Both the position numbers and the translations under genes were made by a program. The notes under the pieces were generated by a model. That model ran no database searches. It was not told the origin of the DNA and was given only the letters and a program-made list of their open reading frames with translations. This document shows positions 52,426 to 59,200 of a stretch of 64,000 nucleotides of DNA, one piece after another. Source of the stretch: Nitrospirota bacterium (GTDB lineage Bacteria; Nitrospirota; Leptospirillia; Leptospirillales; Leptospirillaceae); assembly GCA_027314645.1 (NCBI GenBank), contig DAHVAL010000002.1, forward strand, positions 1-64,000, in the 5' to 3' direction. The number at the start of each line of letters is the position of its first letter. Position 1 is the stretch's first letter.

Positions 52426-53088
52426 TCAGGCGACGAAAGAGGCAGGGAGATCCGGCTCAAGGCCGATTTGATGGAGGATCTTCCGGGTACGATCTCGGAC
52501 CGTTTCCCATAGATCGTCCTTTTCAAGTCCAAGGTCATTCCAGTACTGCTCGAACGGGACCGGAAGGGCCTCCTCGGTCATAAGATAAATTCGCTCGAAT
52601 ATATTGAGGAGCCCTTCTCTCTGCTTGGCCTTTTCCTGAGTATTTAAACGGGAGAGCAGCCCCCTCCATTCGAGAACTCCGAAAGAGGCCTGGCGCCGTT
52701 CATCTGAGATCGGGATTCTGAGGGACTCCTGAAAAATCGGTCCGGCGGCGGTGGCCACTTTCTCCACCACAGAAATCCCGATTCCTTCGATCCCGAGTTG
52801 GAGCCCCCCAAGAAATTCATACCAGTCGAGGTGGGAGAACCACATCTTGATCACGTTTCGTTTGTCCAGAGCCAGGGTCGGCGTAAAAGGCATCCCGATG
52901 GTTTCGAGCGTCCGTTCCTGGATGGAGAAATGGACAACCTCCTCTTCGATCTGCGTCATGAGTGCGCGGCGCGCTTCGGCGGAGGGTGCGAAGGGAAGCC
53001 GGTCGCTGCAAAGCTCGAGCGCCAGAAGGTCGATATCGGCATATACCTGCAGAAGCGTTCCAGCCGCGATTCTGATCCTATCTTCCAT
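52426..53088 (-). CDS. Ferritin-like fold protein of unknown function
   Basis: This is an all-helical protein of 220 aa. QIEEEVVHFSIQE gives an ExxH pattern and SDERRQASFGVLEW gives a DExxQ-like one, as in ferritin-like di-iron proteins, but the second histidine is replaced by Gln. It follows a B12-radical SAM gene by 90 bases and shares its strand, so they may be co-transcribed. No family was recognised. A lipid oxygenase or desaturase-like role is possible but not supported by a full di-iron set. Confidence 0.6.
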   Translation of the reverse strand: MEDRIRIAAGTLLQVYADIDLLALELCSDRLPFAPSAEARRALMTQIEEEVVHFSIQERTLETIGMPFTPTLALDKRNVIKMWFSHLDWYEFLGGLQLGIEGIGISVVEKVATAAGPIFQESLRIPISDERRQASFGVLEWRGLLSRLNTQEKAKQREGLLNIFERIYLMTEEALPVPFEQYWNDLGLEKDDLWETVRDRTRKILHQIGLEPDLPASFVA

Positions 53089-53178
53089 GAAAGGGCTCCT
53101 TTCACATGGGGTTGAATGTCCGAATACGATCGAATGGTTCAGTCTGATGAACGGCGACCCAAAGGATCCGGCGGACGG

Positions 53179-54645
53179 TTACCGGTCGCGATAAACCCGG
53201 TCTTTCAAGACTCCGTAGCGGAGGAGATGCCACAGAGGCCTTTTGTATCCCAGAAAGCGGATGATCTTCTGTGTGACAGGGCGAAGGGGAGGAACAACCC
53301 CCGGGAGAATCCAGTTTCCGCGGGAAGAGGCATACCGCTCAAGGTAGGATAGCAGAAAGGACCGGACGGCGGGATCAAGATAAAACTGAGGCCTCAAAAA
53401 ATCCTTCGCCTCCTTCACAAGCCCATTTTCCATGGCCCAGTCCCCCAAGGGGGTGCCGGGATAGAGGCGGACCCCGGCCATCGCCACCACGGCCATCGGA
53501 CGGGTTTGATCGATGGTCCGGCAGGTATTTTCCACCGTGTCGGGGGTCTCCCCCGGCCCTCCGAAGACGAGGCTGTGGCATAGCGGAATCCCGACCGAAT
53601 GGCAATCCTCCGCGGCCTCAAGGATCCGGTCCCGGGAAAACCCCTTCCCCAGCGCCAAAAGGGTAGCTCCATCCGCCGAATCCGTTCCGACTTCAAGACC
53701 GTCGCATCCGGCGGCCGCCATTTTCTCAAGCAGGCTCCGGGTGAGGCCGGCGGGCGACGCGTAGGCCGACCACCGGATGCGAACATTCCTTCGGATCAAG
53801 GCGTCGGCCACGCCTTCCGCATGGGAGGCCGGGAGGTTGAAGACGCTGTCCACGAAAAAAAATGACCGGATCCCGTACCGTTCGACGATTTCCTCCACCT
53901 CGTCCGCCACGGATGCGGGATCCCTGAGCCGATGGTCCGATCCTTCGAGAACGGGATAGGTACAATATCGGCACCGGAACGCGCATCCCCTCTTGGTCTG
54001 AAGGTTCAGCATTCCGCCCCACCGCGCATAGCGTCTTGGCTCGAAGAGATCGCGGGCCGGACGCACCGATGTCCAGCTCCCCCCGGGTTTGAATGGCCTG
54101 AAAGAAGCTGTCGGGACCCCCGGCTCCCCCTGGATGGGAAAGAGCCGGGGAACAGGACCCAGGCATCGCCCCACCACCCCCGGGATGGCGTGGGGGGATT
54201 CTCCTCCCTCCAGACAGTCAAGGAGGGCGGGAAAGGCCTCCTCCGACTCGCCCGAGACCCCGTAATCGGCCTCCAGGTCCTCCAACATTTCTCCGGGCAT
54301 CAGGCTGAAGGCCGAGCCCCCTACCACGATCGGAACTTTGCCCTCCGAGGCCGCCCGGGCCCTCCGGACCAACGACCGGTAGTCCGGAAGATACCAGCGG
54401 GTCAGCGGATAGGCGGCGTTATCAAGATTGCGGAAGGAAAAGGCGATCACCGAAGGCGCACTTCGCCGCACCTTTTCCGTGAGGGCCTGCTCGGAGTCGG
54501 AGACGAAGGCAAGGTCCAGAACCTCCACCGAATGGCCCGCCTTGAGGGCGGCACCCGCTGCGTAGGCCGGCCCCAAGGGAAAAACAGGGTCCGGAAAATG
54601 TTCGCGGTTCGCAGAAATCAGGAGAAGGTTCACAAAGGCCTCCAA
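53179..54645 (-). CDS. B12-binding radical SAM protein (lipid-associated type)
   Basis: This protein has 488 aa. An N-terminal B12-binding domain (PVFPLGPAYAAGAALKAGHS, then VVGGSAFSLMPGEML) is followed by a radical SAM core with TKRGCAFRCRYCTYP (CxxxCxxC). FFVDSVFNLPASHAE and VFGGPGETPDTVE are class-typical. The start MEAFVNLLLISANREHFPDP resembles the ladderane-associated group of B12-radical SAM proteins as I remember it. No other ladderane genes are in the window. A lipid substrate is plausible but not shown. It is transcribed away from the flavin-reductase unit. Confidence 0.82.
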   Translation of the reverse strand: MEAFVNLLLISANREHFPDPVFPLGPAYAAGAALKAGHSVEVLDLAFVSDSEQALTEKVRRSAPSVIAFSFRNLDNAAYPLTRWYLPDYRSLVRRARAASEGKVPIVVGGSAFSLMPGEMLEDLEADYGVSGESEEAFPALLDCLEGGESPHAIPGVVGRCLGPVPRLFPIQGEPGVPTASFRPFKPGGSWTSVRPARDLFEPRRYARWGGMLNLQTKRGCAFRCRYCTYPVLEGSDHRLRDPASVADEVEEIVERYGIRSFFFVDSVFNLPASHAEGVADALIRRNVRIRWSAYASPAGLTRSLLEKMAAAGCDGLEVGTDSADGATLLALGKGFSRDRILEAAEDCHSVGIPLCHSLVFGGPGETPDTVENTCRTIDQTRPMAVVAMAGVRLYPGTPLGDWAMENGLVKEAKDFLRPQFYLDPAVRSFLLSYLERYASSRGNWILPGVVPPLRPVTQKIIRFLGYKRPLWHLLRYGVLKDRVYRDR

Positions 54646-54713
54646 GAAGGTTCCGGGGATAATTCAGCTTACACTTTCATTCCCATCCGTCAAGGTTTTC
54701 CTCATGACCTTCC

Positions 54714-54742
54714 TTGACAGAACATTGGGAGCGGGATATCGT
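54714..54742 (+). promoter_or_regulatory. Promoter upstream of the flavin-reductase unit
   Basis: A perfect TTGACA is followed after 17 bases by TATCGT. It gives a transcript starting near 54750, some 470 bases before the reductase gene. Confidence 0.65.
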
Positions 54743-54767
54743 TTAGTGAAATTTTAAAGATTTTTGA

Positions 54768-55208
54768 ATGTCGACGATTTTCTGGAATCCTTTTTCTGAG
54801 GTCCCCTTGGCCCTTTCGCCCGGTCGGTCGTTAAGGGAATTCCCATTGGTTCTCCACGAGATGATTCCCACTGCGCCTTTCCCTTCCCTCACGATTCGAT
54901 GGTCTCTGCGCCCAATCGACACCGCCGTGACCCCTACGCGGACCACGCGGCCCCCTCAGGGTTTTCTGCAGGACTCCTTCAACCTAGCGGTCTTGACCCG
55001 GGCTGTTCGGGAAGGGACCCTCAGGATTGTTGCGTCCAAGAATGGGGATGTCTTTCCGTTTATTGAAGGGTTCGGAATCTGGTTCCACGCCGTTTTCCCG
55101 GGTTTTTTGGCCAGCCGTCCTCTTGCTCTGAAGGCTTCCGAACCCCGGCCGAACCCCCGGTTTCTCCATAGAGGGGGGAGGCTTCCCTCCCCCCGGACCT
55201 CCGACTGA
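54768..55208 (+). CDS. Doubtful ORF in the leader of the flavin-reductase gene
   Basis: A 146-aa ORF follows the promoter and ends 10 bases before the reductase start, an operon-like spacing. There is no ribosome-binding site, and its third-base GC is mixed. I recognise no domain; the central part (DSFNLAVLTRAVREGTLRIV) looks more protein-like than the Pro/Arg-rich ends. It may be a real small gene, a degenerate one, or a long untranslated leader. Nothing else is seen in 54646-55218. Confidence 0.3.
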   Translation: MSTIFWNPFSEVPLALSPGRSLREFPLVLHEMIPTAPFPSLTIRWSLRPIDTAVTPTRTTRPPQGFLQDSFNLAVLTRAVREGTLRIVASKNGDVFPFIEGFGIWFHAVFPGFLASRPLALKASEPRPNPRFLHRGGRLPSPRTSD

Positions 55209-55218
55209 AGGACCGTTC

Positions 55219-59122: not shown

Positions 59123-59200
59123 TGGCGCGCCTGGAGAGATTTGAACTCCCGACACTCGGAACCGGAATCCGATGCTCTATCCGGACTGAGCTACAGGCGC
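59123..59200 (-). tRNA. tRNA-Arg (anticodon CCG)
   Basis: The reverse strand gives GCGCCTG...CAGGCGC as acceptor stem, TAGCTCAGTCCGGATAGAGCA as D arm, anticodon stem TCGGA/TCCGA with loop TTCCGGT (anticodon CCG), T loop GTTCAAATC, and an encoded CCA. It reads CGG codons. Confidence 0.93.

Follow-up and report, generated by a model that had tools for sequence, protein, structure and literature searches.

Organization of the gene pair

In the window, the whole stretch of 64,000 nucleotides of Leptospirillaceae DNA that was analysed, two open reading frames lie on the minus strand with a stop-to-start spacing of 90 bases, and the arrangement of two genes on one strand with this gap, as given by the first-pass annotation, was borne out. 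The upstream gene encodes a B12-binding radical SAM enzyme and the downstream gene a predicted ferritin-like protein, hereafter HEL. The features are:

53179..54633, minus strand: B12-binding radical SAM enzyme, TIGR04072-type (PF02310, PF04055, TIGR04072, AF2 model)
54639..54643, minus strand: putative Shine-Dalgarno GGAGG of the radical SAM gene (sequence)
53962..53985, minus strand: radical SAM [4Fe-4S] motif CxxxCxxC, here CAFRCRYC (sequence and alignment)
52426..53088, minus strand: HEL, predicted ferritin-like (aldehyde-deformylating-oxygenase/PaaA-like) protein of 220 aa (AF2 model, Foldseek, profile match)
53096..53102, minus strand: putative Shine-Dalgarno AAAGGAG of HEL (sequence)
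53029..53031, minus strand: HEL D20, helix-A carboxylate ligand position (D or E in all homologues)
52930..52941, minus strand: HEL E50-V-V-H53, ExxH ligand motif (aligned with ADO ExxH; invariant)
52786..52788, minus strand: HEL E101, helix-C carboxylate ligand position (invariant)
52690..52704, minus strand: HEL D129-E130-R-R-Q133 (Gln versus His in the examined homologues outside the family)

HEL starts at ATG 53088, preceded by the strong AAAGGAG ribosome site, and an AGGAG-type site was found 5' of HEL in all relatives checked. For the radical SAM gene, GTG 54633 is the likelier start: the relatives begin there too, and the alternative TTG 54645 sits on the GGAGG sequence. Elsewhere in the window, a tRNA-Arg (CCG) occupies 59123-59200 of the minus strand, and the overlapping long ORFs on both strands are spurious.

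The upstream gene encodes a ladderane-group B12 radical SAM enzyme

The radical SAM protein carries both defining parts of B12-dependent radical SAM enzymes, a B12-binding domain (Pfam PF02310) and a Radical_SAM domain (PF04055) with CxxxCxxC at residues 221-228, the three cysteines of which are invariant in 22 aligned relatives. It scored 362.2 bits with TIGR04072, the ladderane-linked group, barely above the curated cut-off of 360 bits, and its placement among ladderane-family-type enzymes by the first-pass annotation thus holds by a margin of 2 bits. The second-best family was BzaD (209 bits versus a cut-off of 450), and the family search also showed weak similarity to BchE. The AF2 model (pLDDT 84.7) is closest among solved structures to TsrM, a cobalamin radical SAM tryptophan 2-C-methyltransferase (TM 0.80, 24% identity), followed by AprD4, MgmA, OxsB, and TokK. 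Several of these five enzymes are methylases. Despite the resemblance to TsrM, the score with the corresponding family TIGR04428 is 150 against a cut-off of 500, and nothing pointed to tryptophan as the substrate.

In a tree with Nitrospirota relatives, the radical SAM proteins of the family Leptospirillaceae form a single clade (support 100/100). Identity to other Nitrospirota members of TIGR04072 is 31-44%. Unlike several of these relatives, the family proteins lie outside a FAS-II cluster. They also possess a constant ferritin-like partner and a conserved extra C-terminal tail (ending YRDR), which is specific to the family clade and missing from its nearest relatives. We know of no demonstrated reaction for a ladderane-group radical SAM enzyme, and our literature search found nothing on TIGR04072 or on a Leptospirillum ferritin-like/radical SAM pair.

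HEL has a predicted ferritin-like fold with a fixed glutamine at one ligand position

Single-sequence searches of Pfam, NCBIfam, and the PDB with HEL gave nothing useful. The AF2 model (pLDDT 96.2, pTM 0.91) is an antiparallel four-helix bundle, as expected of the ferritin-like superfamily, and a Foldseek search of the PDB with this model returned SSO1313, ADO (aldehyde-deformylating oxygenase), and PaaA as best matches. A profile of 17 HEL homologues matched ADO (E 6.5e-4), a VlmB homologue, and ribonucleotide reductase R2, and individual members of this set matched DUF455, MiaE_2, R2, and AurF. Although no single-sequence family search supported it, the ferritin-like nature of HEL is confirmed, at the level of a predicted fold, by profile and fold comparison. 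The first-pass annotation had staked its claim beforehand on such a fold, and structure prediction and fold search agree on it. The search for homologues was centred on Nitrospirota; one contig scan with peptide patterns of the window's own protein reached close relatives only.

In the alignment with ADO, the first ExxH motif corresponds to E50 and H53 and the second to E130 and position 133, and E101 falls on helix C; D20 takes the helix-A position by conservation and spacing. Five of the six metal-ligand positions are retained in HEL (D20, E50, H53, E101, and E130), one fewer than in the full diiron set of four carboxylates and two histidines (E/D, ExxH, E, ExxH). The first-pass annotation had read EExxH together with DExxQ in place of DExxH, and these are indeed E50-V-V-H53 and D129-E130-R-R-Q133. 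HEL resembles cyanobacterial ADO in fold (TM up to 0.78), length, and these five positions, but it has Gln133 for the second ExxH histidine, shares only ~16% identity, and has no noticed acyl-ACP reductase beside it at the locus. Likewise, the PaaA/SSO1313 group of ferritin-like oxygenases provides the top Foldseek match, but at ~17% identity, and HEL lacks paa-type neighbours.

Every HEL of the family has Gln at position 133, with the other five ligand positions kept, whereas all of the examined homologues from other families (f10, f14, f18, and f42) have His. The family members form a single clade in the HEL tree (support 92/97), and purifying selection acts on both genes, with dN/dS of 0.05-0.15 in HEL and 0.09-0.19 in its radical SAM neighbour. 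Since all family members carry Gln and selection is purifying, the His133-to-Gln change is, as judged from sequence comparison, a fixed substitution and not decay. It may nevertheless weaken or abolish the dinuclear site, so that an oxidase activity of HEL is not assured.

The two genes are gained or lost together

HEL is present in 14 of the 21 family genomes, and in all 14 the radical SAM gene lies directly upstream on the same strand, counting one locus where the upstream gene is cut by a contig end (L035) and one genome where HEL is split across two contigs (G051). The pair was seen in five genera and in four or more distinct genomic contexts, with a gap of 24-101 bases and HEL identity down to 45%. 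Neither gene was found in the remaining seven genomes, in a set of which several assemblies are incomplete. Among these, the contigs of G103 are broken at the site and G061 is not judgeable; in G044, G074, G082, G086, and G089 the DUF4010 and flavin reductase genes stand ~75-105 bases apart with no pair between them, a true joint absence from an intact DUF4010-FNR locus. Under independent occurrence, the two genes would coincide in these 14 of 21 genomes with a probability of 9e-6, which serves as a guide only since the genomes are related. Adjacency in all 14 carriers and the absence of both genes from the other seven place the pairing beyond chance, and the joint absence from an intact locus in five relatives identifies the pair as an accessory unit that is gained or lost together. 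The genome-neighbourhood survey therefore upheld the co-occurrence expected by the first-pass annotation (14/14 HEL genomes), and the separation that it had feared was not seen.

No third conserved neighbour was common to the five genera in the loci compared, where genes were called with a simple codon-usage script and named partly by eye. In three genomes of genera g4 and g5 (L043, L045, and L046), the pair lies near cobalamin precorrin methyltransferase-like genes and ribD, all named by eye, and in these three only, a small secreted-type coiled protein follows HEL.

The flavin reductase, which lies divergently and had been suggested as an electron donor, did not fare as well. It still adjoins the DUF4010 gene in the five relatives without the pair, it is not beside the pair in other genera, and in pair-bearing relatives it usually follows a GGDEF-EAL gene that itself lies between the reductase and the radical SAM gene. 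This synteny rules it out as the partner of the pair; its retention without the pair and its usual position after the GGDEF-EAL gene mean that it provides no evidence for the electron donor of HEL. Positions 54646-55218 of the window appear to be the remnant of a deleted PAS/GGDEF-EAL gene, with a weak match at 55095-55190 (E 0.17). This gene is intact between the radical SAM and flavin reductase genes in L036, L040, L041, and L054, and shortened in L039.

HEL homologues accompany a second kind of radical SAM gene in Nitrospira-type genomes

Sequence and profile searches located HEL homologues of Nitrospira-type genomes in operons with DUF547 and TIGR04283 glycosyltransferase genes, and about two thirds of the loci examined also contain a radical SAM/SPASM gene. 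In L146, L148, L151, L155, and other such loci, the operon consists of radical SAM/SPASM (often), DUF547, the HEL homologue, and TIGR04283; MNIO (BufB-like) and HvfC-type genes lie near some of them. These operons share with the window a homologous ferritin-like protein and, in many loci, a radical SAM neighbour, but they differ in the radical SAM subfamily, in His at position 133, and in the constant glycosyltransferase neighbour. HEL homologues of families f14 and f42 have a full ligand set and no adjoining radical SAM gene. Elsewhere in Nitrospirota, none of the loci fetched has HEL beside a B12 radical SAM gene. The HEL family thus keeps company with two kinds of radical SAM enzyme, the B12 type here and the SPASM type in Nitrospira-type loci. 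The literature search found nothing on DUF547 with radical SAM and glycosyltransferase genes.

Relatives of the radical SAM enzyme lie in FAS-type clusters

Several Nitrospirota relatives of the radical SAM protein adjoin FabD, FabG, ACP, FabZ-like, or KAS genes of FAS-II type; FabD-like and FabA-like domains were confirmed for the cluster of one relative, and the remaining cluster genes were named by eye. Some relatives adjoin a second B12 radical SAM gene. Five loci (L087, L089, L091, L095, and L100) contain two tandem B12 radical SAM genes and a small membrane-type gene, with KAS in some, and are candidates for a Nitrospirota cluster that makes a polyene or ladderane-like lipid.

No FAS-type gene was found beside the pair in the family loci examined, and the FAS-II location associated with TIGR04072 is thus missing here. 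A hidden FAS cluster was ruled out by a single ketoacyl synthase in four of the five family genomes checked, the fifth (G010) having two. A lipid modification by the pair, as the first-pass annotation suggested, is possible. Given the FAS-type clusters around the closest relatives of the radical SAM enzyme, a lipid or other acyl compound is our best single guess at the substrate by analogy, although we would sooner expect it to be wrong than right.

A possible two-step module and its alternatives

The reading that we favour, tentatively and at a little short of an even chance, is that the pair is an accessory two-gene biosynthetic module, in which radical SAM alkylation or cyclisation is followed by oxidation by the ferritin-like protein with five classical ligands plus Gln133. 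We infer the metal content, chemistry, step order, and substrate class of this module as follows. The methylcobalamin-type radical SAM enzyme would alkylate or cyclise a small molecule. HEL, a member of the predicted ADO/PaaA-like fold group, would bind metal via the five classical ligands and Gln133 and, probably as an O2-using metalloenzyme, would oxidise the radical SAM product. Sequential action is suggested by the joint inheritance, the gene order, and the two protein classes. An analogue is provided by the diiron hydroxylase MiaE, which acts after the radical SAM enzyme MiaB. Points against the module are that the analysis turned up neither a substrate nor a third gene of the pathway, that the pair is not accompanied by the FAS-type cluster seen in the relatives, and that the f14 and f42 homologues occur without an adjoining radical SAM partner.

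According to the main rival, HEL has a supporting role in a cell that is aerobic and rich in iron: it would either scavenge O2, peroxide, or iron in the vicinity of a radical SAM/cobalamin enzyme that is sensitive to oxygen, or serve as a non-catalytic binding partner. Constant pairing with the radical SAM gene, the presence of homologues next to another radical SAM gene in Nitrospira-type genomes, and the loss of one histidine ligand in exactly the paired lineage are in line with such a role. However, the five ligand positions are strictly kept, the solitary f14 and f42 homologues have full ligands, and the closest folds are substrate oxygenases (ADO and PaaA) and not rubrerythrins or ferritins; we regard the support role as unlikely, though a serious competitor.

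An undescribed lipid modification for which the divergent flavin reductase would supply the electrons is improbable. TIGR04072 is named for lipid biosynthesis and relatives lie in FAS-II clusters, but dedicated FAS genes are absent beside the pair and the reductase stays beside DUF4010 in the five genomes lacking the pair.

Still less probable is that the two proteins substitute for each other in a single reaction, one acting in the absence of O2 and the other in its presence. BchE and AcsF are such alternatives for the chlorophyll ring, and both proteins belong to the superfamilies of BchE and AcsF. Nevertheless, the genes are adjacent and are gained and lost together, which favours joint use, and cultured leptospirilli oxidise iron aerobically (PMC7231039).

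The chromophore of cytochrome 579 corresponds to no known heme (PMC8126622), and we also considered whether this unusual heme is made by the pair. The pair is family-restricted, both superfamilies include porphyrin enzymes, and the biosynthesis of this heme is an open question, but cytochrome 579 occurs in 21 of 21 family genomes, and in the five with a true absence of the pair it is ~90% identical. The window's genome has two homologues, L163 (G000:C44:109377) and L164 (G000:C68:10804), both with CxxCH at mature residues 45-49, matching the published protein. Related cytochromes (~50% identity) are widespread in other Nitrospirota. Conservation of the cytochrome in genomes without the pair largely refutes a role in its heme maturation, which is highly improbable.

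Least probable of all, synthesis or alteration of the cobalamin lower ligand, to which the second-best match BzaD and the precorrin methyltransferase-like genes near the pair in three genomes might point, is made unlikely by BluB and a single ThiC, which occur in each of the 11 genomes tested whether or not they carry the pair, and is disfavoured by the BzaD score itself, well under its cut-off.

Implications for Leptospirillum-type bacteria

The locus is informative in three respects. Its ladderane-group enzyme has one constant partner and lacks the customary large cluster, and the minimal testable unit is therefore two genes. The fixed Gln amid otherwise complete diiron ligands is a natural experiment on the role of the sixth ligand. 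The natural contrast of presence and absence among close relatives makes comparative metabolomics direct. It is conceivable, if on balance rather unlikely, that a ferritin-like metalloenzyme with a fixed His-to-Gln change has adapted to the product of a cobalamin radical SAM enzyme; the pair would then constitute a new route of two enzymes, accessory in Leptospirillum-type bacteria, whose product might be an unusual membrane lipid or another metabolite.
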